Below are positions 4,443 to 33,580 of a DNA stretch of 64,000 nucleotides, one piece after another. Both the position numbers and the translations under genes were made by a program. The number at the start of each line of letters is the position of its first letter. The first letter of the stretch is position 1. The notes under the pieces were generated by a model. The model searched no databases. It was not told the origin of the DNA and saw only the letters and a program-made list of their open reading frames with translations. Origin of the DNA: Gemmatimonadaceae bacterium (lineage in GTDB: Bacteria > Gemmatimonadota > Gemmatimonadetes > Gemmatimonadales > Gemmatimonadaceae); contig DATNEW010000033.1 of the NCBI GenBank assembly GCA_035606695.1, positions 62,001 to 126,000 on the forward strand. The letters are read 5' to 3'.

Positions 4443-7400
4443 ATGCCGGAAGACGCTTGCGCCGCCGTCGAGCGGCAACTTGGCAACCGCTATCAGATCG
4501 TTCGCGCGCTTGGCGCCGGCGCGTTCGGCGCCGTCTACCTCGCGCGCGAGCGCGATCTCCACCGGCTCGTGGCAATCAAGGTGCTGCGCGGCGACCGCGC
4601 ATGGAGCGACGACGAACGCGAGCGCCTGCTCCGCGAAGCGCGCACCATGGCAAATCTGAGCCACCCGGCGGTGGTGCCGCTACTCGCCGCCGGCGAGTCG
4701 AACGGCGCGGTCTACATGGTCATGCCCTACGTAAGCGGAGAGACGCTCGCCGATCGCATTGCGCGCGACGAGCCGTTCGACGCCGACGAAGTTCGACGAA
4801 TCCTCATCGAGATCGCCGACGCCCTCGCGTATGTGCACGGAGAAGGGGTGCTGCATCGGGACCTCAAGCCCGAGAACGTGCTGCTCGAGCGTGCCGGCGC
4901 GATCGATGACCACATCCCGCCGCGCGTGCGACTCATCGACTTCGGCGTCGCCGCGTTTCCGATGCGCGACGCCGGCGTGAACGCGACGCGTGAGACGTGG
5001 GGCACGCCGCACTTCATGGCGCCCGAGCAGATGCTCGGCGAGCCGGAACTCGATCCCCGCAGCGAGATCTACTCGTTCGGCGTGCTGGGATTTCTTCTCC
5101 TTGGAGGACGTCTGCCGTTCGATGCCACGTCGCCGGCCGAGCGACTCAGGCAGCAGCGCAACGGACCCGTTGTTCCGCTCGGCGTGTGTGCGCCCGATGC
5201 GCCGATGGATCTCGTGCGCGCGATCGAACGGTGCCTCGCCTACGACCCCGATCAGCGTTGGCGCCGTGTCCGCGATTGTCGCGATACGCTGATCGCCGGC
5301 ACAAGCGTCGGGAACAATTCGTTCACGCCGCTGGCACTCGTGCGCCAACGTTTGCGTCCGAATCCAGCCGCGCTCGAGCGATACGCGGCCAGACGTCGCA
5401 AACGTGAACAGCCGCGGCGTCCGCGGCGTCCGCTGGTCAAGCGAATCGCCGGCGCGTTCTCCGGGCTCGATGCCGACGCGCGCTTCGCCGCACGCGCGAT
5501 CAAACGGGCACCGGCATTCTCGGCCGCCATCATCGGAATTCTCGCGATCGGGCTCGGCGCGACGACCGTCGTACTGAGTGCCATCGAAGCGCTCGTCCTG
5601 CGCCCGCCGCCGGTGGCGGATCCGAAAGCGCTCGTTGTGATTCAAGAGCAACGGAAGGGTCCGAACAACGTGAATAACTTCGGTGCGAGCGGGTTTCGGT
5701 ACGACCGCTATCTCGCGTACCGCGACGCCACGGCCGGAGTGTTCACCAACATTGCCGCACAGAGTCATGCGTCCTTCTCGATGCGAGTTGGGAACGCGGC
5801 GCGCGCGGTGAGCGGCCTGCTCACATCGGGCAGCTACTTCGACGTTCTCGGAATCCGTCCCGCGCTCGGGCGATTTTACGATTCACAAATCGACAAGCCG
5901 GGCGGTGCGCAGTCGGTCGCGGTGCTCGGCTACGACTTTTGGCGAAGCGCGCTCAACGCAGATCCGAACATCATTGGTAGAACGATTCATCTCGACAGCC
6001 GCCCGATGACGATCGTCGCGGTGGCACCGCAAGGCTTCCGGGGCGCGATTGGCGCCGTGTTTTCGATCGACGTGTGGGTCCCAGCTCCAGCGTATGCAAG
6101 GCTGACTGTTCGCGGCGGAGGCCATAGCGACGACAAAACCGCCGCTGTTCTGCCCGGCTTCTGGATGAACATCTTTGGAAGGCTGCGCCCCGGAGTCGCC
6201 GTGCGCGGCGCGAGTGAAGCGCTCAGAGTCATCGCGCCCCGTGTCCCGACCGAGGATCCGAGAACGCGGATTCTGAATGCGTGGGCCGAGCCCGTGCGGA
6301 CGCTCCCAACCATGATGCAAAAGTCCATGGAGCAATTCATCACGATGCTTTTTGGCGTCGCGCTGCTGGTGCTCGTGGTTGCCGCGGCGAATGCCGCCGG
6401 GCTGCTGCTCGCGCGCGCAACCGCCCGCACGCGAGAGATGGCGACGCGGATGGCCGTGGGCGCGGGTCGCGCGCGTCTCATTCGGCAGCTGATCGTCGAG
6501 AGCGTGATCTTGTGTGCGGCCGGCGGAATTCTCGGAACACTCATCGCGCTGTGGCTTTCGCGATTTCTCAATGCGTATCGGCCGTCGGGAATTCCGATGT
6601 CCGTCGCATTCGGCGTGAATGCTACGGTCCTCGCGATCGTCGGCGTCATTGTGCTGGGGACCGCGCTCGTCGCGGGCATCGTTCCCGCCCTTCACGCCAC
6701 GGCGGTCGATCTCGCGAGCGCGCTCAAGGCGAGCGGTGTGCAGACCAGCGAGAGACGATCGAGGCTGCGCAGCACGTTCGTCGTCGCCCAGATTGCGTCG
6801 TCCGTCGTGCTGCTTGCGATCGCGGGACTCTTCATCCGCTCGCTTCAACGTTCTCTCAACATCGATCCAGGCTTCCGGGCCGAGGGTGTGATCGCCGGCG
6901 ATTTGAGTGTCGGAGTTCACGGCTACGACCGAAACGCGGCCGAACAATTCTATCAGCGTTTGCTGGCGAGGCTGCGCGCGCGTCCCGAGATCGCTGCCGC
7001 CGCGACCGCGAACGCCGCTCCGCTGAGTGGGGCGGTGATGAACGAGGAGACGAAACGCGTCAGTCATTCCGACGACGATGTCGTTGCGCAATGGGCGGTG
7101 GCCGACTCCGGGTTCATCGAGCTTCTCGAGACACCATTAGTATCCGGCCGACTCTTTACGAGCCACGATCGGCGCGAGCCGGCGCCCGTGGCGATCATCA
7201 ACCTGACGCTCGCGCACAAGCTGTGGCCGAACGATCCGCCGCCGAGCATTGTCGGTCGCCGCATCGTCACGTTTGGACGCGAGATGGAGATCGTCGGCAT
7301 CATCGGCGACGGCAAATACGCGAGCCTGCAAGAGGCGCCCAAGGCGTTCGGATATTTGCCGTCTGCCGAGCAGTTCGGCACGTCACGCCTTCTATACATC

Positions 7401-7919
7401 CGTGCCAGAACCACGACCACCTCCGCGCTGCGGGCCGCGACAGAGGAGTTGGCAAAGCTCGATCCAAACGTCGCACTCGAGCGCCCGAGGTTACTCGCGC
7501 AGGACGTCGACAAGTTTCTCCTGCAGCAAAAGCTTGGCGCGCGGCTGATCGCGGCGTTTGGCCTCGTCGGTGTCGTGCTCGCCATGACGGGTCTCTACGC
7601 GGTCCTGGCGTTTGGCGTCGCACAGCGCATGCGTGAGTTCGGGGTGCGTCTCGCGCTTGGTGCGCGCGGAGCGGATATCACGTGGTTGGTCGTGCGGCAT
7701 GGGTTTGCGCTCATGGCCGTCGGTCTCGTGATCGGGCTCGCGGGCGCGATCGGCGCGGGTCGCGTGGTTTCCAGATTCCTCTACGGCATCGGCGCAGTCG
7801 ATCCGGCAACGCTCGTGGCCGTTCCACTTCTTCTGGGTTTGGTTGCCGTCGGGGCGTGCGTCGTGCCGGCGCGTCGTGGCGCGGCGGCTGATCCGATGGC
7901 GTCGTTGCGCGCGGAGTAG
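4443..7919 (+). CDS. Ser/Thr protein kinase fused to a duplicated ADOP-type permease
   Basis: This 1158-residue protein joins two modules. Residues 1-285 are a Hanks-type kinase: glycine loop LGAGAFGAV (23-31), AIK lysine K46, catalytic HRDLKPEN (138-145, D140), DFG (166-168) and APE (193-195). The catalytic set is complete, although the helix-F segment reads SEIYSFG with Glu for the usual Asp. After a basic linker (about 300-350, rich in R and P) comes a complete duplicated MacB_PCD-FtsX permease: TM1 about 357-383, periplasmic domain, three helices near 630-760, a second periplasmic domain, and three C-terminal helices. The kinase sits where other ADOP proteins carry their cytoplasmic N-terminal helical prefix, so the predicted topology is consistent. 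It could couple phosphorylation to the permease; substrates are unknown. No ATPase gene is adjacent. Confidence 0.92.
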   Translation: MPEDACAAVERQLGNRYQIVRALGAGAFGAVYLARERDLHRLVAIKVLRGDRAWSDDERERLLREARTMANLSHPAVVPLLAAGESNGAVYMVMPYVSGETLADRIARDEPFDADEVRRILIEIADALAYVHGEGVLHRDLKPENVLLERAGAIDDHIPPRVRLIDFGVAAFPMRDAGVNATRETWGTPHFMAPEQMLGEPELDPRSEIYSFGVLGFLLLGGRLPFDATSPAERLRQQRNGPVVPLGVCAPDAPMDLVRAIERCLAYDPDQRWRRVRDCRDTLIAGTSVGNNSFTPLALVRQRLRPNPAALERYAARRRKREQPRRPRRPLVKRIAGAFSGLDADARFAARAIKRAPAFSAAIIGILAIGLGATTVVLSAIEALVLRPPPVADPKALVVIQEQRKGPNNVNNFGASGFRYDRYLAYRDATAGVFTNIAAQSHASFSMRVGNAARAVSGLLTSGSYFDVLGIRPALGRFYDSQIDKPGGAQSVAVLGYDFWRSALNADPNIIGRTIHLDSRPMTIVAVAPQGFRGAIGAVFSIDVWVPAPAYARLTVRGGGHSDDKTAAVLPGFWMNIFGRLRPGVAVRGASEALRVIAPRVPTEDPRTRILNAWAEPVRTLPTMMQKSMEQFITMLFGVALLVLVVAAANAAGLLLARATARTREMATRMAVGAGRARLIRQLIVESVILCAAGGILGTLIALWLSRFLNAYRPSGIPMSVAFGVNATVLAIVGVIVLGTALVAGIVPALHATAVDLASALKASGVQTSERRSRLRSTFVVAQIASSVVLLAIAGLFIRSLQRSLNIDPGFRAEGVIAGDLSVGVHGYDRNAAEQFYQRLLARLRARPEIAAAATANAAPLSGAVMNEETKRVSHSDDDVVAQWAVADSGFIELLETPLVSGRLFTSHDRREPAPVAIINLTLAHKLWPNDPPPSIVGRRIVTFGREMEIVGIIGDGKYASLQEAPKAFGYLPSAEQFGTSRLLYIRARTTTTSALRAATEELAKLDPNVALERPRLLAQDVDKFLLQQKLGARLIAAFGLVGVVLAMTGLYAVLAFGVAQRMREFGVRLALGARGADITWLVVRHGFALMAVGLVIGLAGAIGAGRVVSRFLYGIGAVDPATLVAVPLLLGLVAVGACVVPARRGAAADPMASLRAE

Positions 7920-8177
7920 CGCAGCATTCCCCTCGAACGCACGCCCGAGACGCTGCATGCGATGTTGCACGATGTCGGCACGGCGTGGATTGACGCCACG
8001 GGAGGGCCCGATACCTGAGGCGCTTACGCCATCCTCGCACATCTCGTCCGCGGCGAGCGCGCGAACTGGATCCCGCACGCCCGGTTCATCCTGTCTCAAA
8101 GTACGAGCCGCCGCCTTCCGTCGTACGATCGGTTCGCGCACGTCAGCGACAGTGAAAGCAAATCGCTGTCCCTCCTC
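7920..8177 (+). pseudogene. decayed DinB-superfamily gene
   Basis: Directly after the stop of the kinase-permease, and in the same frame, the translation reads IPLERTPETLHAMLHDVGTA. After a TGA (8016-8018) it continues GAYAILAHLVRGERANW and SYDRFAHVSDSESKSLSLL. This matches the usual DinB layout (LERTP, then a GPDTW-like motif, then HLxxGERxxW). The TGA sits where the conserved Trp codon (TGG) is expected. There is no start codon, the N-terminal residues are missing, and recognisable similarity ends near 8177. I read it as a gene lost by N-terminal deletion, a nonsense change and C-terminal loss. DinB genes accompany two other ADOP genes in this window (10397 and 13480). Confidence 0.72.
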
Positions 8178-8427: not shown

Positions 8428-9321
8428 TCATCGCCTGCGACGAAGCTTCTTTTCGAACCAGTGGTGCGCGTAGGGCTCGTCATTGAACGGTTCGATCTCG
8501 ACGTATCCTGATCGCCGGTACATCGAAATGGCTTCCGTGAGCGTACGGTTCGTCTCGAGGCGCACCGCCGTCGCGCCGGCCATTCGCGCTTCATTCTCGA
8601 GCACGTCGAGAAGACGTTTGCCGAGTCCGAGCCCGCGCGACTCCTTGGCGATCCACATGCGCTTGAACTCGGCCGGCTGTTTGCCGTTGAACTTCACGGC
8701 GCCACACCCGATCGGACGGCCGCGCACTCGCGCGATCACGAATGCTCCGCTGGGGCGAGCGAACACGCGAGTGTCGGCGTACAGACTTCGCGCCGGATCG
8801 AAGCCAAGGTCGAAGCGCTCATTCAACTCGGCGAAGTACTGGGAGAGACACCATCGCGATGTCGCGGTCCGCGGATCCTCGACGTCGAACCGGACCATGG
8901 ACGCCTGGAGGAGACGTTCGATCTCGGCCAGCGATGACAAGAACGTCTCTCGTTGCGTCGCGCTGAGCGGCTCGAGCATTCGCTGGGCGACAGCGTTGGA
9001 CCTCTTGTCGAGCTCCCGGCGTTCAGCCAATCCTCGCTTCGTAAGCGTCGCGCGCCGCAGGCGCGCATCGCCGGCGTTGACGCGGACGGTCACCAGCCGC
9101 TGCCGCTCGAGCAATCGTAGAAGCCTGCTGACGTATCCTGAATCGAGACCGAGCCGGCCCCGCAGGTCGCGGACGTCGGCGCCGTCGGTGCCGATTTCCC
9201 AGAGAAGCCGCGCCTCACCGAGCGGACGGGATCGTCCGAGAAAATGATCCTCGAGTGCGCCAATGCGCTCGGCGACGAGACGGTTGAAGCGCCGGACTTG
9301 CTCGATGGCGGGGTTTGCCAT
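8428..9321 (-). CDS. MarR-type regulator fused to GNAT N-acetyltransferase
   Basis: This 297-residue bifunctional protein has a MarR winged helix (about 35-100, with LDSGYVSRLLRLLERQRLV as recognition region) followed by a GNAT domain (about 155-293). The acetyl-CoA loop RGLGLGKRLL lies at 229-238, and the family ending MYRRSGYVEIEPF is present. This architecture is common in proteobacteria and actinobacteria, but the acetylation substrates are mostly unknown. A perfect 7+7-bp palindrome (9326-9341) just upstream of the ATG is a probable autoregulatory operator. It lies 52 nt downstream of the LysR gene on the same strand. Confidence 0.93.
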   Translation of the reverse strand: MANPAIEQVRRFNRLVAERIGALEDHFLGRSRPLGEARLLWEIGTDGADVRDLRGRLGLDSGYVSRLLRLLERQRLVTVRVNAGDARLRRATLTKRGLAERRELDKRSNAVAQRMLEPLSATQRETFLSSLAEIERLLQASMVRFDVEDPRTATSRWCLSQYFAELNERFDLGFDPARSLYADTRVFARPSGAFVIARVRGRPIGCGAVKFNGKQPAEFKRMWIAKESRGLGLGKRLLDVLENEARMAGATAVRLETNRTLTEAISMYRRSGYVEIEPFNDEPYAHHWFEKKLRRRR

Positions 9322-9373: not shown

Positions 9374-10276
9374 CTATTCACGATCCGTGAAGTGGCTTCG
9401 AAACTCCTGCTCGAGAAATGACGCCGCGGGTTCGAGCCGGCCGAGATGGGCGGCTTGCACGAACACGATCGACGCCTCGATGCTGATGCCGGACCGCGTG
9501 ATTCGCTCCAGCCGCCGGCGTTTCGAATGCGAGGCAAGAAATCGCGAGGGGATAGCCCCGAAGCCGATCCCGCTCGCCACGAGAGACAATTGCATGTCGA
9601 TATTGTTGATCGCGGCGGCGAGTTCGAACGGAGTGCCGAGCTCGCGCAACCTCGCCTCGATCGCGGCTCGAATAAAGCAACCGGACGGGTTGAGCACCCA
9701 GCGGCCGTCGAGCGCGTGATCCTTCGACTTGCTCGAGCGCCGCGGACGAGGTTGCGGTCCTTTGGCCTTGACCAAGACCAGACGTTCTGACGCCAAACGG
9801 CTGCTGGCCAAATCGCCGGGTATGGTGTCGTTCGCCGAGAGGAACGCCAGGGCGACGTCGAGCTCGCCGGTGCGGAGCTGCTCGATGAGCTGTTGCTTGA
9901 GGTGGGTGCTCAGCACCGGTTGAAGCCGGGGGAAGCGACTCGTCAAGCGCTCGATCGACGCGACGAGGCTCGGCTGTGCGAGCATAAACGACAATCCGAC
10001 GCGGAAAGCTCCGCTTGGCTCGGCGTCCGCCGCACTGTTCGCCTTGAGATCGTCCATGATGCGCAGCATCTGTCGGCCGCGATCGAGCACCTCGCGGCCT
10101 TCGCGAGTGATCCGTCCCGGCTTCACACGACGATCGAGCAGTGGCGTCTTCAATGCCGCTTCGAGGCGCTGGATCTGCCGGGTGACCGCCGACGGCGTCA
10201 GGAAGAGCCGTTCCGCCGCCCGCTGCAACGAGCCTGATTCGGCCAGGACGACGAACGTCCGCATCTCATCGAGCAC
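9374..10276 (-). CDS. LysR-family transcriptional regulator
   Basis: This protein of about 300 residues has an N-terminal winged helix-turn-helix (about 3-62, containing SLQRAAERLFLTPSAVTRQI) and a substrate-binding effector domain (about 90-295). I place the start at the GTG at 10276 because GGGAG lies 6 nt upstream. An upstream ATG at 10318 would put the palindrome at 10301-10315 inside the gene. The family usually begins a few residues before the LDEMRTFVVLAESGSL-type stretch, which also fits. It is divergent from the DinB-ADOP operon and very likely controls it through the palindrome. A second copy of that element lies at 16985-17019 in front of another ADOP operon. Confidence 0.92.
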   Translation of the reverse strand: MLDEMRTFVVLAESGSLQRAAERLFLTPSAVTRQIQRLEAALKTPLLDRRVKPGRITREGREVLDRGRQMLRIMDDLKANSAADAEPSGAFRVGLSFMLAQPSLVASIERLTSRFPRLQPVLSTHLKQQLIEQLRTGELDVALAFLSANDTIPGDLASSRLASERLVLVKAKGPQPRPRRSSKSKDHALDGRWVLNPSGCFIRAAIEARLRELGTPFELAAAINNIDMQLSLVASGIGFGAIPSRFLASHSKRRRLERITRSGISIEASIVFVQAAHLGRLEPAASFLEQEFRSHFTDRE

Positions 10277-10299
10277 GACAAACTCCCAGTTGCTGGTCG

Positions 10300-10334
10300 A
10301 GCAATATGATATTGCCAAAAGTGCATTTGACGCA
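10300..10334 (+). promoter_or_regulatory. LysR-box element 1 (shared with 16985-17019)
   Basis: The element contains the 15-bp palindrome GCAATATgATATTGC (10301-10315), a T-N11-A type site, followed by TGCATTTGACGCA. It matches the minus-strand sequence at 17019-16985 at 30 of 35 positions. TTGACG at 10327-10332 could serve as a -35 box; the TAACCG 17 bp further on is a poor -10 match. It lies between the LysR gene and the DinB-ADOP operon. Confidence 0.65.
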
Positions 10335-10396
10335 AACGTGAATCAGCCTTAACCGTTCGTTCGGGAAACCCCCATCACCAAATGAGGCTGCTCCAT

Positions 10397-10918
10397 ATGA
10401 AGAAAATTCTGATTCAGTTCGGCTTGTGCGCGCTTGCGGTCCTTCCAATGGCGCCGTCGGCGCAGGCGCAGCGGCAGGCGGGGGGATTACAGGCCGCCCT
10501 CGCGGAAGATGCCGGAACGCTGTCCGACAAATTCACTGGCCTCGCGCGTGTCATGTCGGGCAAGTACGACTGGAAGCCCGGGGAGGGCATTCGCTCCGTC
10601 AGCGACGTCTTCAACCTGATCGTGGCCGAAAACGGCCTGACCGCCAACGTGCTTTCAGGCTCCCCGGCCCCCGCCAGGCCGGCACCCATCACCGATCCAG
10701 AGAAGATGCAGGACGCTCTCAAGACGTCTTACGCGCAGCTGCAAAAAGTGATTGCAGGACTGTCCGACGCCGATCTGCGGACGAACGTGAAACTGTTCGG
10801 AAAAGAATGGCCGAAGCGGGACGCCCTGATGCACGTCCTCCTGGATCAACACGAGCATTTGGGACAGTCGATCGCGTATGCGCGCACCAACGGCGTGGTT
10901 CCACCCTGGTCCAAGTAG
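10397..10918 (+). CDS. exported DinB-superfamily protein
   Basis: This protein of about 173 residues has a Sec signal peptide (MKKILIQFGL... to AQAQ) and a DinB-like four-helix domain. The closing segment contains the expected histidines (LLDQHEHLGQSIAY). The ATG at 10397 is preferred over that at 10382 because GAGG lies 9 nt before it. DinB-superfamily proteins often bind a metal through a His triad and include thiol-dependent transferases, but the function here is unknown. Exported DinB proteins with this type of ending (NGVVPPWS) are common in soil phyla. The gene is followed after 21 nt by an ADOP permease and lies downstream of LysR-box 1. Confidence 0.88.
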   Translation: MKKILIQFGLCALAVLPMAPSAQAQRQAGGLQAALAEDAGTLSDKFTGLARVMSGKYDWKPGEGIRSVSDVFNLIVAENGLTANVLSGSPAPARPAPITDPEKMQDALKTSYAQLQKVIAGLSDADLRTNVKLFGKEWPKRDALMHVLLDQHEHLGQSIAYARTNGVVPPWSK

Positions 10919-10939
10919 CCGGCCATGCGGGAGATGCGG

Positions 10940-13435
10940 ATGACACGGTTCGTCTCGGAGCTCGGCCAAGATGTTCGCTATGGTGCGCGCATGCTGGTCA
11001 AGAAGCCCACACTCACCATCGTGGCCGTCCTGACGCTGGCGCTGGGCGTGGGAGCCAACACGGCCATTTTCAGCATCGTGGATGCCGTGTTGCTGCGTCC
11101 TCTGCCATACCGCAATCCGGATCGTTTGGTACGAGTATTCTTTAATGAGCCCGGCGCCGGATTGCGCGACGTCAGGTTTTCCGAGCCCGAGCTCGAGGAC
11201 CTGCAAAAGCGATCGGGCGTCTTCGACGATGTCACGCCGATCTTCGAGGGCAATGAGGATGTGATCGGCGACGGACCCCCCGAACGTGTCGAGGCCGTCA
11301 ACGGGAGCTTCAGCTACTTTTCCCTGCTCGGTGTGACGCCGCAAGTCGGACGGTTGTTTCGTCCGCAGGATTTTGTGCCGGGTTGGTCTGATAACGTCGT
11401 GATCAGCGACGGCTTCTGGCGCCGCGCCTACGGCGCCGATCCGAACATCGTCGGGCGTATCCTCCGGGTCGACAACGATCCCCAGATCATTATTGGAGTT
11501 CTGCCGCGCGGATTTCGCCATCCTGGACCGACCATCTCCGGCGAACCGGAGGTGTTTGCCGCCGGCGGCTTCACCGGGCCGCCTTTTCCGAAGCCAGCGC
11601 GCAGTGCCCGCCGTTTTGTCAATGCGATCGGACGACTGAAGCCTGGCCTGACACTGGCGCAAGCGCAGACCCGGCTCACGACGATGGCCGCCGAATTGCG
11701 CCAGGCCTATCCCGGCGATTACCTGCCGACGACGCAATGGACAATCGAGATTCAGTCATTGCAAGAAATGTTGGTGGGAAATGTTCGGCCGATGCTATTG
11801 GTGTTGCTGGGGGCGGTCATCCTGATCGTTTTCATCGTCTCGTTGAACATTGCGAATCTCCTGTTGGCCCGCGCTTCGGGACGACAACAAGAGATGGCGG
11901 TGCGGCAATCGTTGGGCGCGAGTCGCGGCCGTTTGGTGCGACAGATGGTGACCGAATCCATGCTGCTGTCGCTCGTCGGCGGTGTCGCGGGAATCGCAAC
12001 CGCGGCGGGTACGTTGCGCTTCATCGTGCGCTTCGTGCCGTCGAACGTTCCCCGCCTCAACGAAGTACGAATCGACTGGGTAGTGCTGGCGTTCGCGCTC
12101 CTGCTTTCCGTGCTCACCGGTTTGGTGTTTGGACTTGCCCCCGCGTTTCATTCGGCAAAAGGGGCGCTCGCCTCGGCCATTCGCGAAGGCGGTCGAGGAT
12201 CCGGCTACAGCGTGAAGACCGGCCGATTGCGGGATGTGCTCATCGTCTCCGAGTTGGCATTTGCCGTCATACTCATGGTCGGAGCCGGCTTGCTGCTGCG
12301 TACGATGCGCGACCTGTTGCAAGAAAATCCGGGGTTTAATCCGACTCACCTCGTGACGGCAAACCTCGAGCTTCCAAACCCGAACGACCGCGCAACGGAC
12401 CCGTATCGCGATGTACCTCGCCGAGCCACCTTCGAGCGTGAGTTGCAGCGCCGCATGAACGCAATTCCGGGAGTGGAACGCGCCGCGATCACTTCCGTTC
12501 TCCCGAGCACCAATACCAACCCCAATGCGGTCGGTGGTGTGCCGAATGAAGGCTTTGCGATCGAAGATAGACCGGACGCGTCCCTTCAGGACGTGCGCGC
12601 CGAGAGATTCCAAATAAGCCCCGATTATTTCAAGGTGTTACAAGCCTCACTCGTGCGCGGCCGCGTATTCACCGAGGACGATGAAGACGGCAAGCCGCTG
12701 GTGGCCATCATCGACGAAAGCACCGCGCGAAAGTATTGGCCAACCACCGATCCCCTGGGCCGCCGAGTGCGGTTCACGCGAGACGCGACGAAGCCATGGA
12801 CGACCATCGTGGGGATCGTCAAGGACATCAAGAGTGACGGCCTCGACATCGACGGCGTTCCCCACATCTACGTGTCGAGCTATCAAGACTCCAACAAGCG
12901 ACTGAGCGTGGTATTGCGGACGCCTCTCCCCGCGGCTGCTCTGGAACCGCGGATTCGGCACGAAATCCAGAGCATCGATGCGACCTTGCCGGTCTTTGGT
13001 GTCGCTTCCATGAACGACGTCCTCGATCGGTCACTGGCGTCACACCGTTTTTCTGCCGACCTGGTGGGCGGATTTGCCGGACTGGCGATGCTCCTGGCCT
13101 CGATCGGAATTTACGGCTTGTTGTCGTATATGGTCGGGCAACGGGCGCGCGAGATCGGTATCCGCATGGCGCTGGGCGCCCGGCGGGAACACGTGATGAG
13201 AATGTTCTTACAGCGAGGGATCGTGCTCGCCGGCGTGGGCGTCGTTATCGGATTGATCGTTGCCGCATCGTCTGCGTCGCTGCTGGCCAGCTTGCTCTAT
13301 GGGGTCCGCCCCCACGATCCGGCGGTGTTTCTGATCGTGCCTCTCCTCTTGTTTGCCGTTGCCGTTCTCGCCAGCTACCTCCCGGCGCGGCGCGCGACGA
13401 AAGTGGACCCGTTGATTGCCTTGCGCGAGGCATGA
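10940..13435 (+). CDS. ADOP-family duplicated permease
   Basis: This 831-residue inner-membrane protein has two MacB_PCD-FtsX units. TM1 is at about 23-50 ([21 protein letters not shown]). A periplasmic domain, three helices near 270-420, a second periplasmic domain and three final helices follow. Both FtsX loops carry the family motifs ([19 protein letters not shown]-like and [19 protein letters not shown]). It has no N-terminal PadR-type prefix. The start at 10940 has GGGAG 6 nt upstream; ATGs at 10925 and 10934 are weaker. It is closely similar in sequence and order to the permease at 14422-16896. Both are paired with a DinB gene and a LysR box. Confidence 0.9.
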
Positions 13436-13458
13436 TCGCGCGGCCCTTTCGCGCGATC
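13434..13458 (+). terminator. hairpin after the ADOP gene
   Basis: GATCGCGCG (13434-13442) and CGCGCGATC (13450-13458) form a perfect 9-bp stem with a 7-nt loop at the ADOP stop codon, between convergent genes. There is no T-tract, so it is a terminator candidate from shape and position only. Confidence 0.4.
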
Positions 13459-13479
13459 GGCTACATCTGACTTCATCAC

Positions 13480-13986
13480 TTATCGAATCAACGCGCCGAT
13501 GACCGCGAGATGATGATCATCGTGCTCCGCGACAAACTCCGCGTGGTCGATCAGCCGCAGCTCCCGCTTGAGGCGCGGATGCAGCGCGGTACGCGTGACG
13601 ATCGTCTCGTCAGCATCCATTAGCAGTCGCACCAGCCGGAGTCGCGCCGCACGAAAGCCGGACAGCAGATATTCGATGCTGCGCGCGTTGTGATTGGCAT
13701 TGGTCGTGGTCCGATTCGTAAGATCGGCCGGCGCAAGCTCGCTCTCACCAGCCAAGTATTGCTCGGCCCGGCGTAACCACAGTGCTTCGAGATCGAACAG
13801 ATGCCCGACGTTCTCCTGCGCTGACCACCGACCCGGATGCGCTCGCGTCAGGCGCTCTCGTGGCACGCCGCGCGTACGCTCATCGAGGCGCGCGGGAGTT
13901 CCGCGGAGCCGCTCGAGCAGGCTCGGAAACCGGCTTGCCGGCAATGTGAATTCAAACGAGTGCTGCAACCACTTTTCCGTTTGCAA
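13480..13986 (-). CDS. DinB-family protein
   Basis: This 168-residue protein has the DinB_2 layout. After the opening helix come GRWSAQENVGHLFDLEALW, with a first metal-ligand His, and a closing motif AEFVAEHDDHHLAVIGALI with the His cluster. There is no signal peptide, so it should be cytoplasmic, unlike the exported DinB at 10397. It is the last gene of an ADOP-RidA-DinB operon on the minus strand (30 nt after RidA). Detoxification by thiol transfer is possible for this superfamily but is not shown here. Confidence 0.88.
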   Translation of the reverse strand: MQTEKWLQHSFEFTLPASRFPSLLERLRGTPARLDERTRGVPRERLTRAHPGRWSAQENVGHLFDLEALWLRRAEQYLAGESELAPADLTNRTTTNANHNARSIEYLLSGFRAARLRLVRLLMDADETIVTRTALHPRLKRELRLIDHAEFVAEHDDHHLAVIGALIR

Positions 13987-14016
13987 GAATAGCCTCGCTG
14001 CTATGAGCCTGGATCG

Positions 14017-14394
14017 TTAGCCGGCGATCATTTCCATCTCGACGATCGCGCCGAGTGGCAGCGCCGCGACCGCTACTGTCGTGCGAGCCGGATACGGAGC
14101 CACAAAATGCTTGGCGTACACCTCGTTCATCTCGGCGAAGTGCCGTATGTCGGTGAGATACACGTTCACTTTCACGACATCGACGAACGACTTGTTCGCG
14201 GCGCTCATGATCGCTTCGAGGTTGCGAAAGATCTGCTCTGTTTGAGCGACAACGCCGCCCTCGATCAGCTTGCCCGTGGCAGGATCTTGTGCGACTTGCC
14301 CGCTCGTATACACGCGATCGCCGTCGCGGACGGCGGGTGAAAATGGACCGACGGGTTTCGCGAGACGGTCAGACGTAATGGGTTGTAGCGGCAT
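14017..14394 (-). CDS. RidA-family reactive-intermediate deaminase
   Basis: This 125-residue protein is full length for the RidA/YjgF/UK114 family. It has the typical opening (AKPVGPFSPAVRDGDRVYTSGQ), the central NLEAIMSAAN region, and the PARTTVAVAALPLGAIVEMEMIA ending that carries the active-site Arg and the Glu of classical RidA. RidA hydrolyses 2-aminoacrylate and related enamines or imines produced by PLP enzymes in the cytoplasm. The gene is 27 nt after the ADOP permease stop and 30 nt before the DinB gene, so the three are probably co-transcribed. Why a permease operon includes RidA is unclear. Confidence 0.95.
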   Translation of the reverse strand: MPLQPITSDRLAKPVGPFSPAVRDGDRVYTSGQVAQDPATGKLIEGGVVAQTEQIFRNLEAIMSAANKSFVDVVKVNVYLTDIRHFAEMNEVYAKHFVAPYPARTTVAVAALPLGAIVEMEMIAG

Positions 14395-14421
14395 ATCCAG
14401 GGTGTTGGGGAAGGGGTGTGA

Positions 14422-16896
14422 CTACTTGAGCGCCTGTATCGGAGAAACGCGCGTGGCGCGTCTCGCGGGAATGAAACACGCGGCCAGCGCCACGATCCCG
14501 AGCACGGCCGGCACGACGGCAAACGTCGTTGGGTCGTTCGACGACACGCCGAACAAGACGCTCGACATCAGCCGCGTCACGCCGATCGACGCGGCCAAAC
14601 CGACAATGGTACCGGCGGCGGTGAGAATGAGGCCGGGACGGAACGCGAGCCCGAGAATATTTCGAGGCATCGCACCCAGGGCCATCCGAATGCCGAACTC
14701 CTGCGCGCGCTGGCCGACGACGAAGGCCATCACCCCATAAATTCCCAGCGCGGCGAGCAGGAGCGCCGACACGGCGAAGACCGACATCAGGAAGAGTGAG
14801 AACCGGCGCCGCGCCATCGAAGCCGACTTCAGGTCAGCCATGCTCATGACGCCGAACACCGGAAGCTCCGGATCGATGCTGCGTACCGCCGCTGTGAGTG
14901 CTTCCTTCGTCGCCTTCACATCCACATCAGAACGCGTGCGCAGAAACACGGCCAGCTCCTGGCTGGGATATTGAAGAATGGACTGGTACACGCGCGGTGG
15001 CGGCGCGATATCCAGCCCGTCGTTTCGCACATCCCCAACCACGCCGATGATTTGGGCTTCTTGTGCTTGACCCCTCGCGATGAACCGCAGCCGTTGACCA
15101 ACCGCCTCTCGTTGTGGTGAAAATCTTCGGACGAACGCTTCGCTGACTACCACGACCCTCGCGGTGGATTCGGCGTCGTGCTCGGTGAAGCCGCGTCCTC
15201 TCTTGAGCGGCGTCCCGAGCACGTCGAAATACGCTGCGCTCACCGCTCCAAACTCCGCCGCGTGATCATTTTCCTGCGTCGACATCTCGTCGGGCAATGA
15301 AAACGGGAGGGGACTGTTCACATTGCTCAAGAGCGGGATATCGCTCGACGTGCCCACCGCGGATTGCTCCAGGCCGGGGAGCAGGGCGATCCGGTTCGTT
15401 AGTTCCCTGACAAGCCCGGCGCGCTGCACCTGCGTGAAGTATTGATTCGCCTTGGGATTGTTCGGAAAGGGAACCCAGATTTGACCGGTGACGAGCCTCT
15501 CCGGATCGAGGCCAGGATCCTGGCTCAGCGCGGCGGAGAAGCTGCGGACGAGCAATCCGGCGCCAACCAGCAGTACCGCCGATAGAGCAACTTCCAGCAC
15601 GACCAACGCGGCGCGCGATCGATTTTGGCGCACGCTCTGCCCACCGCCCGTCCGTCCGCCATCCCGCAAGTCGCGATTTGGGTCGAGCGTCGATGCGTGG
15701 AGCGCCGGCATCAATCCAACCAGCACGCCGGTCGCGAGGGAGAGCACGAGCGCGAGGAACACCATTCGCCAATCAGCGTGTACCTCGGCGAGTCGCGGGA
15801 CGTCCGCGGGCATCAGCGCAAGAAGCGATCGTTGCGCGAAGAGGAGCATGGCAACGGCAGCGGTGCCTCCGGTGAGCGATATGAGCACGCTTTCCGTCAG
15901 AACCTGTCGAACAAGCTGCCCGCGAGAGGCGCCCAGCGCCTGGCGAATTGCAAACTCCCGCATGTGTGCCGAGCCCCTGGCGATCAGCAAGCTGGCGACG
16001 TTGACGCAGGCGATCAGCAGCACAAAGCTGACGGCGGCGAGCAGGATCACCAGCGTCGGCCGCACGTTGCCCGTCAGGCTGGTTTCGGCAGGCTCGAGCC
16101 GAAGCGACCAACCCAACTGCTTGGGATAATCATTGGGGAAGGTCTGTTGCAACGAAGTCGCCAGCGCATCGAGTCGCTGTTGCGCCTGCTCAAGTGTGAT
16201 TCCCGGTCTCAACCGCCCCAACGTTCCGGGTAGAAAGCGCCTGACGCGTTGCGGGGGCGAAGGGAATGGATCGCCCGAGAAGCCGGTTCCTGTCCAGATG
16301 TCGACGTCGCCGCCGACGGTGTTGCCCGGGTGGCGAAAGTCGGGAGGCATGACACCGATGATCGTGTAGGGGTCTTCATCCACGCGAACGCGGCGCCCGA
16401 TGATGTGTGGATCCGATCCGAATTGGCGCTTCCAGAGCCCGTCGCTGATGACGACGCCGTCCAGGAAACCCGGCACCCACTCCGCCTGCGTGTACGTCTG
16501 TCCGAGGGCCGGCCTCGCTCCGAGGAGCTCGAAGTAGTTCGGGCTCGTCCCGAGTAACTCGATCCGCTCCACTCGGTCGCCGCCCGACAACGCCGTGCTC
16601 ACGGGAACAATCGCGCTGATCTGCTCGAATACGCCGGAGCGGCGCAAATCGTCGAGCTCGGGGACCGACATCCCAATGTCCTTCGCTCCCGCACGGCCTA
16701 CGTCATCGAACACGCGCACGAGGCGTTCGGGCTCGCGGAAGGGCAGCGGCTCGAGCAGCACGGCGTTCACGACCGTGAAGATCGCGAGATTCGCTCCGAT
16801 CCCGAGCGCGAGCGTCAACACGGTGATCGTCACGAACGCGGGGCTCTTCCTCAGCGTCCGGAGCGCATAGCGCACGTCCTGCAGGAGACCGTCCAT
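14422..16896 (-). CDS. ADOP-family duplicated permease
   Basis: This 824-residue permease has two MacB_PCD-FtsX units. The N-terminal helix TITVLTLALGIGANLAIFTV is followed by the usual pattern of periplasmic domain, three helices, periplasmic domain, three helices. Family motifs such as FAIRQALGASRGQLVRQ and [14 protein letters not shown] are present. The frame stays open to 17082, but the start is placed at 16896, where GGAGGA sits just upstream. The extra 62 codons would cover the promoter region and LysR-box 2. It is followed by RidA and DinB. The sequence is clearly paralogous to 10940-13435, and no ATPase is adjacent. Confidence 0.92.
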   Translation of the reverse strand: MDGLLQDVRYALRTLRKSPAFVTITVLTLALGIGANLAIFTVVNAVLLEPLPFREPERLVRVFDDVGRAGAKDIGMSVPELDDLRRSGVFEQISAIVPVSTALSGGDRVERIELLGTSPNYFELLGARPALGQTYTQAEWVPGFLDGVVISDGLWKRQFGSDPHIIGRRVRVDEDPYTIIGVMPPDFRHPGNTVGGDVDIWTGTGFSGDPFPSPPQRVRRFLPGTLGRLRPGITLEQAQQRLDALATSLQQTFPNDYPKQLGWSLRLEPAETSLTGNVRPTLVILLAAVSFVLLIACVNVASLLIARGSAHMREFAIRQALGASRGQLVRQVLTESVLISLTGGTAAVAMLLFAQRSLLALMPADVPRLAEVHADWRMVFLALVLSLATGVLVGLMPALHASTLDPNRDLRDGGRTGGGQSVRQNRSRAALVVLEVALSAVLLVGAGLLVRSFSAALSQDPGLDPERLVTGQIWVPFPNNPKANQYFTQVQRAGLVRELTNRIALLPGLEQSAVGTSSDIPLLSNVNSPLPFSLPDEMSTQENDHAAEFGAVSAAYFDVLGTPLKRGRGFTEHDAESTARVVVVSEAFVRRFSPQREAVGQRLRFIARGQAQEAQIIGVVGDVRNDGLDIAPPPRVYQSILQYPSQELAVFLRTRSDVDVKATKEALTAAVRSIDPELPVFGVMSMADLKSASMARRRFSLFLMSVFAVSALLLAALGIYGVMAFVVGQRAQEFGIRMALGAMPRNILGLAFRPGLILTAAGTIVGLAASIGVTRLMSSVLFGVSSNDPTTFAVVPAVLGIVALAACFIPARRATRVSPIQALK

Positions 16897-16984
16897 ACCG
16901 TCCTCCGTTCGATGCGGCACCGGCGTGATGGCAACGGGCGATTGCCACCTCCCAATGGACGAATGGGTACGTGCAGAACCGTAG

Positions 16985-17019
16985 TGCGTCAAATGCATGT
17001 TTAGCACTATGATATTGCT
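16985..17019 (-). promoter_or_regulatory. LysR-box element 2 (shared with 10300-10334)
   Basis: Read on the minus strand, this block begins AGCAATATCATAGTGC and ends TGCATTTGACGCA, matching 30 of 35 positions of the element at 10300-10334. It lies about 90 bp upstream of the ADOP-RidA-DinB operon start (16896). The two ADOP operons probably answer to the same regulator, most simply the LysR protein encoded at 9374-10276. Confidence 0.65.
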
Positions 17020-17066
17020 GACAAAGCACAATCGATAATCAAGTCTTGTGCGTCGGCGCGACAGCC

Positions 17067-17120: not shown

Positions 17121-17768
17121 ATGTCCGCGCAGACACACGCCAGTGCTGTATCGGTCGAGGATTCGTTCGCTGTTCCGGCCACAGCGGAGCAGTTGCAACA
17201 GGTGGCTCTGGCGCTCGAGTCGAACGGCTTTGCCGCCGAGGTGGTCGATACCGCGGAGGACGCCCGGCGGCGGATACGTTCGCTCGTTCCGGGCGGCAGC
17301 AGCGTGCTGACCGCGGCGAGCGAAACACTTCGCCTGTCCGGCATTGCCGACGATATCGACCACTCGGACGCCGCGGTATCGATCGGAGCCCGCGTGCACT
17401 CGATGAATCGACAAACCGAGGGCGAGGCGATTCGCCGCCTCATGGCCAGCCCGGACGTCGTCATCGGAAGCGTCAGCGCGGTGACCCACGATGGATCGCT
17501 CGTCGCGGTTTCGGCCAGCGGGAGTCAACTGCCGGCGTATGCGGGCGGAGCCGGTCGACTCATTCTCGTCATCGGCGCGCAGAAAGTGGTCGCCGACCTC
17601 GCGGCCGCGATGCGGCGCATCGAGAGCTATGCGCTCCCGCTCGAAACGGAGCGGACGAAGCGCGCCTACGGAGTGCCGAGCTTCATCGGGAAAATCCTGA
17701 TCATCAATCGTGATTATCGCCCGGGACGAACGACCATCATCCTCACCAAACAGGCCATCGGGTTCTAA
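17121..17768 (+). CDS. LUD-domain protein (LutC/YkgG-like)
   Basis: This 215-residue protein has a LUD fold, seen in the stretches VPGGSSVLTAASETLRLSGI, GEAIRRLMASPDVVIGSVSAV and the glycine-rich region before RLILVIGAQKVV. In LutC and YkgG this domain is part of the iron-sulfur lactate-oxidation complex. Here the LutA and LutB partners are absent, so a different role is likely. ATG 17121 has GAGAG 4 nt upstream. ATGs at 17046 and 17094 would lie upstream of, or within, the predicted promoter. It is first in an operon with a carboxymuconolactone decarboxylase-family protein (6 nt gap) and a propeller lipoprotein. Confidence 0.85.
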   Translation: MSAQTHASAVSVEDSFAVPATAEQLQQVALALESNGFAAEVVDTAEDARRRIRSLVPGGSSVLTAASETLRLSGIADDIDHSDAAVSIGARVHSMNRQTEGEAIRRLMASPDVVIGSVSAVTHDGSLVAVSASGSQLPAYAGGAGRLILVIGAQKVVADLAAAMRRIESYALPLETERTKRAYGVPSFIGKILIINRDYRPGRTTIILTKQAIGF

Positions 17769-17774
17769 CGACAC

Positions 17775-18365
17775 ATGCCACGCCTTCCAATTCCTACCTT
17801 CGATACCGCCCCGGCGGTCGCGCGCCCCGTCCTCGCCGACTTGCGCGAACGCTCTCTCTCGCCTGGAACGCTGCTCAACCTCCACGCGCAAATGTCGACC
17901 TCACCCGCGACGCTCATGGGATACATGGGTATGCGGAGCGCCATCGAGCAGTACGGGACGCTGGACGCGAAAGTGCGAACGGCGATCATGCTATCGGTGA
18001 GCCGAACTGACGGGGCGGGGTACGCGCAGGCGATCAATGTGATGCTCTGTCGTCGCGCGGGATGGTCGGCCGAAGAGGTCAGCGAGATCGCCGCCGGCAC
18101 CTTCAACGACGATCCGAAGATCGCGTCACTGCTCGAAGTCGCGCGTCAAGCCGCCAGGAACATCGGCCATGTCGACGACGGCGCGTGGCGCATAGCGCGC
18201 TCGAACGGCTGGAGTGCCGAAGAACTGAACGACACGTTCGCCAGCGTCGCGCTCACCATGGTGGTCGACTACTTCGTGCACTTCGCGGAGACCCCGCTGG
18301 ACGTTCCGGCCGCGCCCGCGGCCGCGGACACACGCAACCTCGAACGAATCAGGAGCCACTCATGA
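17775..18365 (+). CDS. carboxymuconolactone decarboxylase (AhpD-like) family protein
   Basis: This 196-residue protein has the all-helical CMD fold: GTLDAKVRTAIMLSVSRTDGAGYAQ, then AGWSAEEVSEIAAGTF, then LEVARQAARN and a second repeat-like half. The AhpD CxxC pair is absent; only one Cys is seen near residue 77. Peroxidase activity by the AhpD mechanism is therefore doubtful. CMD genes are the classical neighbours and targets of ECF41 sigma factors. This operon has the ECF41-like promoter at 17067-17095, while the sigma gene lies at 26383-27360. The stop codon overlaps the next start (ATGA). Confidence 0.87.
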   Translation: MPRLPIPTFDTAPAVARPVLADLRERSLSPGTLLNLHAQMSTSPATLMGYMGMRSAIEQYGTLDAKVRTAIMLSVSRTDGAGYAQAINVMLCRRAGWSAEEVSEIAAGTFNDDPKIASLLEVARQAARNIGHVDDGAWRIARSNGWSAEELNDTFASVALTMVVDYFVHFAETPLDVPAAPAAADTRNLERIRSHS

Positions 18366-19540
18366 TGAAATGGACAATGTCAGGCGCGGCCATGATCGCG
18401 GCCCTCGCGATCTCGGCGTGCAGCGATCAGGGAACAACGCAGCCAAGGAGCGCGCAGCCGCCGGTGTCATTCGATCGGCATGACGACGCGTCCACCGACG
18501 GCGTCGGTGCCGTGTTCACCAGCAGCAACGCCGTCGGCGGAAACGTCGTGTTCGCGTTTACCCGGCGCGGCGATGGCGTACTGTCGAAGACCGGAGAATT
18601 CCCGACTGGCGGGAACGGCGTAGGCGGTGACGTCGACCCACTTCAGTCGCAGAACTCAGTCGTGCTCGCCGACGACCGTCAGCATCTGTATGTCGTGAAT
18701 GCCGGCAGCAATACCGTTTCGACGTTCTCGATCGCGCCGAACGCGACGCTCCAGTTGCTCGGCACGACCTCGTCAGGCGGCGTTCGGCCGATTTCGTTGG
18801 CGGTCAGCAATCACGACGTGTTCGTGCTCAACGCGGATAACTCGGTTGCTACGCTCGCGCTCGATGACGCCGGCGTCCCGGTGGGAGCTCCTGTGGCCCG
18901 TGTTTCACTCGGCGACGCGTCCGACGGTCCTTCGACGATCGCCGCGACTCGCGACGGAGACTTTCTCTTTGTGACCCAGCGTTCGGCGAACGCAATCGAT
19001 GTGCTGCGTGCCGACGCGCGTGGCGCCCTCTCTCTCGTCGAGCGTCGTCCCTCGAGCGGCGGAGTTCCGTTCGGCTTCGCGGTGACGAAACGTGCGCAGG
19101 TGATCGTGTCCGAGGCGGCTGGCGATGCGCCCAACGGTGCTGCCTCGTCCTATGATCTCGCGCGAGATGGCTCGCTGACGTCCATCACGTCGTCGTTGTC
19201 GACGCACCAGGCCGCGTCATGCTGGCTCGTGCTCAGCAACAACGATCGCTTTGCGTTCGTCGCGAACGCCGGCAGTGGCTCCATCAGCGGGTACGCCGTC
19301 GCCTCGAACGGAACGCTCACGGCGCTCGATCCCTCGGGCCGGACCGGCATCACGACTACTCCGGACGCCACACCGCTCGACATGAGCGTGACCCGCGACG
19401 GGAAGTTTCTCTACGCCCTTCAGACAGGGACGGGAACGATCGGTTCGTTCGCGATCGCGGCGGACGGCCGTCTTACCACTCTCGCTGACACGCCGGGCCT
19501 CGCCGCCGCGGCGGGGTTCCAGGGCCTCGCTGCCTACTGA
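18362..19540 (+). CDS. beta-propeller lipoprotein (lactonase-like)
   Basis: This 392-residue protein has a lipoprotein signal (AALAISAC, lipid-modified Cys at about 20). It is followed by repeated blades of about 45-50 residues, each with a motif like HLYVVNAGSNTVSTFSI, FLFVTQRSANAIDVL, FAFVANAGSGSISGY or FLYALQTGTGTIGSF. This is the lactonase or YVTN-type seven-bladed propeller. Sugar-lactone hydrolysis is known in the family, but catalytic residues cannot be assigned here. The start ATG overlaps the stop of the CMD gene, with GGAG 6 nt upstream, so translation is coupled. Confidence 0.88.
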   Translation: MMKWTMSGAAMIAALAISACSDQGTTQPRSAQPPVSFDRHDDASTDGVGAVFTSSNAVGGNVVFAFTRRGDGVLSKTGEFPTGGNGVGGDVDPLQSQNSVVLADDRQHLYVVNAGSNTVSTFSIAPNATLQLLGTTSSGGVRPISLAVSNHDVFVLNADNSVATLALDDAGVPVGAPVARVSLGDASDGPSTIAATRDGDFLFVTQRSANAIDVLRADARGALSLVERRPSSGGVPFGFAVTKRAQVIVSEAAGDAPNGAASSYDLARDGSLTSITSSLSTHQAASCWLVLSNNDRFAFVANAGSGSISGYAVASNGTLTALDPSGRTGITTTPDATPLDMSVTRDGKFLYALQTGTGTIGSFAIAADGRLTTLADTPGLAAAAGFQGLAAY

Positions 19541-32644: not shown

Positions 32645-32707
32645 CTGAATCTCCGAAGAAGCCAGTGCATAGACACGCGACGGGTGCGGAGGGTTGGCCC
32701 TCGACTC

Positions 32708-33580
32708 TTAGATCGCGTCCTTGTGCGTGAAGACCTGAATGACGTTGGCGCGCAGCACTTGCCACGTGACGCCGTTGGGCGTCGTGATCGTCGATCCATC
32801 GAGCGTGCCGACGACGTTGAAGAAATTGGCGACGAACTGCGCCGGCGCCGGTCCCTTGCAGTCGAGATTGATCACGTTCGTGAGCGGCTGCGTTCCGTCG
32901 AAGTAGTTCGTGATGACGTAGTAGTTCACGCCGTTCGACTGGAACCCGAACTGCTCGAAGACTCCGAATGAATCCACGCTGCCGAACATCATCACGCCGT
33001 TGTACACCGCCTGACCGACGAGCTGGGAGCACGGCGCGAGCGGCGTCTTCACCTGGACGTTCACCGTGACGCGGTTGTTGGCCGGCTGCGGATCGGGCGT
33101 GTCCGACGTAATGACACCGGTGTTGCTGAACGTGCCGACGGTCGGCGGCGCATTGAGGTTGATGGTCACGTTCGGCGTGTAGCCCGTCGTCTTGTCGAAG
33201 TTGCCCATCGCGCACGTCACGACTTTCGCGTTCTGGGCGCAGCGCGCCGGAACTCCGTCCACGGCGGCGTAATTGAACCCGACATTCGCCGGCAGCGTGT
33301 CCGTGAACATGACATTGTTGGCCTGGCCGCCGCTCGACCATTTCACCTGGAACGTGTATGTGAAGGCGGCGCCGCCGTTCGGCGAGCCCGTGCTCGACGA
33401 GCCGGACATCTGCATGTCGGCGCTGGTGGGCGCCGTATTGAACGAGGCGCGGAGTCCCTGCGGCTCGTTGATGGTCGAGGTCGAGTCGCCGCATGCGGCC
33501 AGACCCGCGACGCCGACGATGGTGACGATGGTGACGATGGTGACGATGCAGCGGAGGCGGCCGGACGTAAACGGCGGCAT
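32708..33580 (-). CDS. lipoprotein with DUF11-like domain
   Basis: This 290-residue protein has a lipoprotein signal (VGVAGLAAC, Cys at about 30). A DUF11/Ig-like repeat follows (about 60-155, FTYTFQVKWSSGG, FTDTLPANVGF, NTGVITSDTPDPQPANNRVTVNVQV). The C-terminal domain has no recognised family and ends VLRANVIQVFTHKDAI. The signal peptide core TIVTIVTIV is encoded by a 9-bp tandem repeat (33515-33548). The last 49 bases of coding sequence are 88% identical to a fragment at 45040-45088. The start at 33580 has GGAG upstream. Confidence 0.8.
   Translation of the reverse strand: MPPFTSGRLRCIVTIVTIVTIVGVAGLAACGDSTSTINEPQGLRASFNTAPTSADMQMSGSSSTGSPNGGAAFTYTFQVKWSSGGQANNVMFTDTLPANVGFNYAAVDGVPARCAQNAKVVTCAMGNFDKTTGYTPNVTINLNAPPTVGTFSNTGVITSDTPDPQPANNRVTVNVQVKTPLAPCSQLVGQAVYNGVMMFGSVDSFGVFEQFGFQSNGVNYYVITNYFDGTQPLTNVINLDCKGPAPAQFVANFFNVVGTLDGSTITTPNGVTWQVLRANVIQVFTHKDAI
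33515..33548 (-). repeat. 9-bp tandem repeat in the signal peptide of the DUF11 lipoprotein
   Basis: About 3.8 copies of GACGATGGT lie at 33515-33548. On the coding strand they encode TIV units in the hydrophobic core of the signal peptide. A copy change would lengthen or shorten the core by 3 residues in frame. Confidence 0.85.

Follow-up and report, generated by a model that had tools for sequence, protein, structure and literature searches.

A LysR-type regulator and a shared operator predicted to control two ADOP permease operons in a Gemmatimonadaceae genome

In a soil bacterium of the Gemmatimonadota, two operons encoding ADOP permeases carry matching elements upstream of their first genes. 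The elements lie approximately 6.7 kb apart, and one of them adjoins the gene of a LysR-type transcriptional regulator (LTTR). Sequence comparisons make it very likely that one LTTR binds both elements and regulates both operons, and that regulator and operator form an old, horizontally spreading pair with a varying cargo. Both operons are probably switched on together by a single LysR protein.

The matching elements and the two operons

The analyzed stretch of DNA (64 kb, referred to below as the window) contains the following features.

8428..9321, minus strand: MarR-GNAT fusion, encoded on the strand of LysR and 52 bp downstream of it
9374..10276, minus strand: LysR-type regulator (Pfam HTH_1 and LysR_substrate; GTG start likely, MLDEMRTF)
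10300..10334, plus strand: element copy 1, 35-bp match
10397..10918, plus strand: DinB1, exported DinB-fold protein (Pfam DinB_2; signal-peptide-like N-terminus by eye)
10925..13435, plus strand: ADOP1 permease (MacB_PCD and FtsX, duplicated; TIGR03434)
13480..13986, minus strand: DinB2, cytosolic DinB-fold protein (Pfam DinB_2), last gene of the second operon
14017..14394, minus strand: RidA-family protein (TIGR00004)
14422..16896, minus strand: ADOP2 permease (TIGR03434)
16985..17019, minus strand: element copy 2, 35-bp match

The ungapped alignment of 10300-10334 (plus) with 17019-16985 (minus) has 30/35 identical bases, as an earlier note on this DNA had claimed, and the best pair obtained in 1000 shuffles of both intergenic regions reached 23/35. 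In an all-against-all comparison of the window on both strands, only two distinct pairs of 35-mers attained 30/35, one of them being the pair of elements. The other (32705-32739, plus, and 45090-45056, minus; GTCCTTGTGCGTGAAGACCTGAA) resembles a coding fragment common to both places, near a gene end. The scan for further copies that the note had proposed found the pattern at these two places only in the 5.9 Mb genome (up to 3 mismatches), so that no further regulon members were detected there at this threshold; the reversed pattern, used as a control under the same conditions, gave zero matches.

The gene orders described earlier, LysR (minus), box, DinB-ADOP (plus) and box, ADOP-RidA-DinB (all minus), were found to be correct, as was the placement of the LysR gene beside the first operon. 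The LysR protein belongs to the LTTRs, with matches to PF00126 and PF03466 above the cut-offs. Its start is probably the GTG at 10276, chosen by homology to the ATG starts in two relatives (G109 and G021).

Both permeases exceed the curated cut-off of the ADOP family TIGR03434 (916 bits for ADOP1 and 848 bits for ADOP2, against 622), and the RidA-family protein exceeds that of TIGR00004 (140 against 106 bits). DinB1 and DinB2 score above the DinB_2 cut-off, with an automatic alignment too poor to place metal ligands. DinB2 has a weak, below-cut-off YfiT-like match (29 of 160 bits), and DinB1 gave no match to the YfiT equivalog profile.

A search with ADOP1 gave 132 matches in the genome (G000) at E <= 1e-20, of which well over 100 are full-length. 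Among these ADOP genes ADOP1 and ADOP2 are mutual nearest paralogues; they are only 44% identical, and their description as close paralogues holds in a relative sense. The neighbors of the next-nearest ADOPs elsewhere in the genome (L065-L068) include no comparable LysR or DinB partner; one of these ADOPs, at L065, comes after a PadR-like gene. Within the window, a further ADOP-like permease (4443-7919) is fused to a serine/threonine kinase-like N-terminus, a reading based on visual inspection and BLAST comparison with ADOPs.

Genes for LUD-domain, CMD-family and lactonase-type beta-propeller proteins (17127-19540) diverge from the second box. They were considered as its targets and dropped, as no homologues turned up in the related loci.

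Anatomy of the operator-promoter

The anatomy was derived from 13 sites gathered from six Gemmatimonadales genomes. In the two copies of the window it comprises the following parts.

10290..10304, plus strand: distal T-N11-A dyad TTGCTGGTCGAGCAA, copy 1, predicted LTTR recognition site
10312..10325, plus strand: imperfect middle dyad TTGCCAAAAGTGCA, possible alternative activation site
10322..10334, plus strand: proximal T-N11-A dyad TGCATTTGACGCA, copy 1, conserved in the sites
10327-10332, plus strand: −35-like TTGACG, copy 1, overlapping the proximal dyad
10350..10355, plus strand: −10-like TAACCG, copy 1, 17 bp from TTGACG
17015..17029, minus strand: distal dyad GTGCTTTGTCAGCAA, copy 2, from the 13-site conservation
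16997-16985, minus strand: proximal dyad TGCATTTGACGCA, copy 2, conserved in the sites
16992-16987, minus strand: −35-like TTGACG, copy 2, within the proximal dyad
16964..16969, minus strand: −10-like TACCCA, copy 2, 17 bp from TTGACG

The 35-bp element is real, but its extent had been set too small, since conservation runs on both upstream and downstream. The distal dyad has the form TGC-N7-GCA, with TGC at positions −10 to −8 and GCA at the start of the element as first reported, and both arms are almost invariant in the 13 sites. The proximal dyad, located 31 bp beyond it, has (nearly) invariant arms of the same kind, and TGCATTTGACGCA is the same in 11/13 sites. The middle dyad is the weakest of the three: the bases of its left arm are conserved in 13/13 (T), 12/13 (G) and 8/13 (C) sites, and its right arm overlaps the proximal dyad. 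Its use as an alternative activation site is only a suggestion.

A TA is found at a fixed distance of 17 bp from TTGACG in nearly all target-linked sites, often followed by TTCGT. A scan with the sigma-70 consensus found no promoter and the −10 is poor against that consensus, so it is from conservation that we propose one: TTGACG, 17 bp and TA look like an activator-dependent promoter. A T-N11-A motif within an interrupted dyad, upstream of a target and near a divergent regulator gene, together with the 31-bp spacing and a TTGACG inside the proximal dyad followed by a weak −10, would make the element and its flanks a standard LysR-type operator-promoter, to judge by sequence.

We propose that the distal TTGC-N7-GCAA dyad is the recognition site anchoring an LTTR tetramer, which would span about three helical turns (31 bp) to reach the proximal TGC-N7-GCA over the −35. 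An inducer would alter the engagement of the second dimer with the proximal sites, and DinB1-ADOP1 and ADOP2-RidA-DinB2 would then be transcribed more strongly from their weak promoters. The probable LysR start codon is preceded, at 14 bp, by the distal dyad of copy 1, so binding at this site may also restrain expression of LysR itself.

Box and regulator in other genomes

A LysR orthologue (E <= 1e-40; 55-86% identical) was found in 6/288 genomes of the order Gemmatimonadales, and the box is present in exactly those genomes (6/6 with LysR, 0/282 without). Regulator and operator therefore co-occur in the same 6/288 genomes, as befits an LTTR regulon; a phylum-wide sample of 395 added no case. 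The chance of this co-occurrence would be about 1e-12 for independent genomes, which these are not, because one box sits beside the LysR gene and is transferred with it. More weight falls on the second box, which lies kilobases from LysR. In G021 the DNA-binding domain of LysR is approximately 81% conserved, against 55-61% for the whole protein. Taken together, these observations suggest that LysR almost certainly binds both boxes.

The targets in these genomes are as follows.

G000: DinB-ADOP1; ADOP2-RidA-DinB2
G004: exported DinB protein (behind a short unknown frame); ADOP2-RidA
G024 (C15): exported DinB protein; ADOP2-RidA
G024 (C38): DinB-GNAT with a LysR remnant
G109: ADOP2-RidA-ADOP1, consecutive behind one box
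G025: ADOP1; GNAT and a frame-broken DinB2
G021: RidA-PhzF, downstream of LysR and box; box and RidA are about 0.9 kb apart, with a lipoprotein-like frame in between

The earlier note had itself raised the possibility that the similarity is a remnant of a recent duplication with no conservation in relatives. The mutual nearness of ADOP1 and ADOP2 would fit such a leftover, devoid of regulatory meaning, of the event that made two ADOP operons. However, identity reaches 86% in the element, which is conserved in relatives, but only 44% between the two genes. The LysR-side and ADOP2-side boxes keep distinct orthologous middle sequences in G000, G004 and G025 (GATATTGC versus CATAGTGC), and therefore both predate these lineages. 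Boxes also precede DinB-GNAT and RidA-PhzF loci. We rejected this explanation as extremely improbable.

Relatives of LysR (about 34-42% identity) were found by a search of the genome collection in Alphaproteobacteria and Geothrix, where most of their genes face a zinc-type alcohol dehydrogenase/quinone oxidoreductase. Upstream of most of these related LTTRs, a weight matrix built from the Gemmatimonadota sites picked a site that agrees in strand and register (consensus judged by eye, GCATnATnATnnTGAnnATTATGAATTTGAA); it often ranked first or within the top ten of about 40,000 locus positions. When the upstream DNA was shuffled, the results for individual sites ranged from 0/300 to about 60/300 (50/300 at L048); by this comparison the matrix failed at L034 and L036, and nothing convincing was seen upstream of the distant LysR genes L053-L060. 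The argument for a cross-phylum operator is carried by the repeatedly shared register and not by individual scores. Such conservation would allow sequence-based prediction of regulons for this LTTR clade. Upstream of position 8056 in locus L029 (Alphaproteobacteria MAG palsa_895) there is a nearly Gemmatimonadota-like operator, GCAATATCATAGTGAC, between a LysR gene of 41% identity and a large outer-membrane-receptor-like frame.

These data bear on another explanation, that the element is a promoter or the site of a different regulator and that the adjacency of LysR is incidental. The conserved TTGACG, and the TA 17 bp downstream, would be expected of a promoter; two conserved dyads reach past its hexamers, the box tracks LysR (6/6 and 0/282), and related LTTRs of other phyla mostly have an upstream site in this register. 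In the case of G109, the LysR-side box is without a recognizable divergent target and its core, TTGCGTGTGACGCAA, has an altered −35 and a perfect dyad, a single case but the expected result if selection acts on regulator binding without promoter function. We consider an incidental neighbor unlikely, and binding of the two boxes by LysR remains our preferred interpretation.

The operator is kept while its cargo varies, from genome to genome, around one set of permeases and detoxification-type enzymes: ADOP permeases, RidA, DinB-fold proteins, GNAT and PhzF. The MarR-GNAT fusion next to LysR is a possible associate of the regulon; a homologous GNAT (61%) comes directly after a box in G025. Signs of decay were also seen, namely a 3′ fragment of LysR (L086:1475-1891) beside an intact box-DinB-GNAT set, and the frame-broken DinB2 of G025 (L022:7625-7935).

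The LysR proteins of G024 and G109 are 91-93% identical and their ADOP2 proteins 83%, while RpoB is 72% identical. The higher identity of LysR than of RpoB, combined with the occurrence in 6/288 genomes, implies horizontal transfer, and the LysR module appears to have spread in this way between two families.

The earlier note read the locus as a small regulon for sensing and handling a single class of compound. The regulon is strongly supported by T-N11-A dyads, co-occurrence, conservation across genera and families, and the cross-phylum register; a single compound class is suggested only indirectly by the recurring detoxification-type cargo (RidA, DinB, GNAT, PhzF and ADOP), in which the repeated RidA, DinB and GNAT point to the handling of small molecules. 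LysR might instead control the two operons for different ends, such as envelope maintenance and metabolic repair. The variation of the cargo agrees with this, as do the membership of RidA in a general metabolite-repair family and the oxidoreductases that mostly face the alphaproteobacterial LTTR relatives. The uninterrupted ADOP2-RidA-ADOP1 run of G109 and the recurrence of RidA, DinB and GNAT as targets argue against it, and we give separate ends a substantial chance, short of an even one.

More tentatively, and as less likely than not, we suggest that the module, by spreading horizontally and swapping its cargo, places pairs of ATPase-less ADOPs and RidA, DinB and GNAT proteins under chemical induction as one system of protection against a small molecule. 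If true, this would open a first way to the function of the large family of ADOPs.

Comparison with known systems

Regulons under LysR-type control are common. One dedicated to ADOP permeases appears not to have been described in the literature searched (subscription journals lay largely outside it), in which we found neither an ADOP-LysR link nor a function for these permeases. Compared with the ADOP family in general, the two permeases of the window appear to be tied to one LTTR operator. An operator and a regulator for two of more than 100 ADOPs offer a testable route to ADOP function, leading first to the inducer and then to what these proteins transport or signal.

The LysR-alcohol dehydrogenase pairs of Alphaproteobacteria and Geothrix share the register and strand of the operator at approximately 34-41% LysR identity. 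They differ in the proximal core (TGAATTTGA versus TGCATTTGACGCA in Gemmatimonadota) and in having a single oxidoreductase as target; the literature searched yielded no characterized member.

The nearest solved LTTRs by sequence are BenM and CatM, a remote relation (E about 1e-15). At benA and catB of Acinetobacter, site 1 is the dyad ATAC-N7-GTAT, a T-N11-A motif, sites 2 and 3 are less perfect, with site 2 over the TTGAAC −35, and occupancy of the sites shifts with the effector (PMC6628147). The present operators would likewise use a T-N11-A dyad with N7 as anchor, with further sites at the −35. They differ in their TGC/GCA arms, in dyads 31 bp apart, and in targets that comprise permeases and detoxification-type genes instead of aromatic catabolism. 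In layout they resemble the two-activation-site model summarized for LTTRs (PMC11739112).
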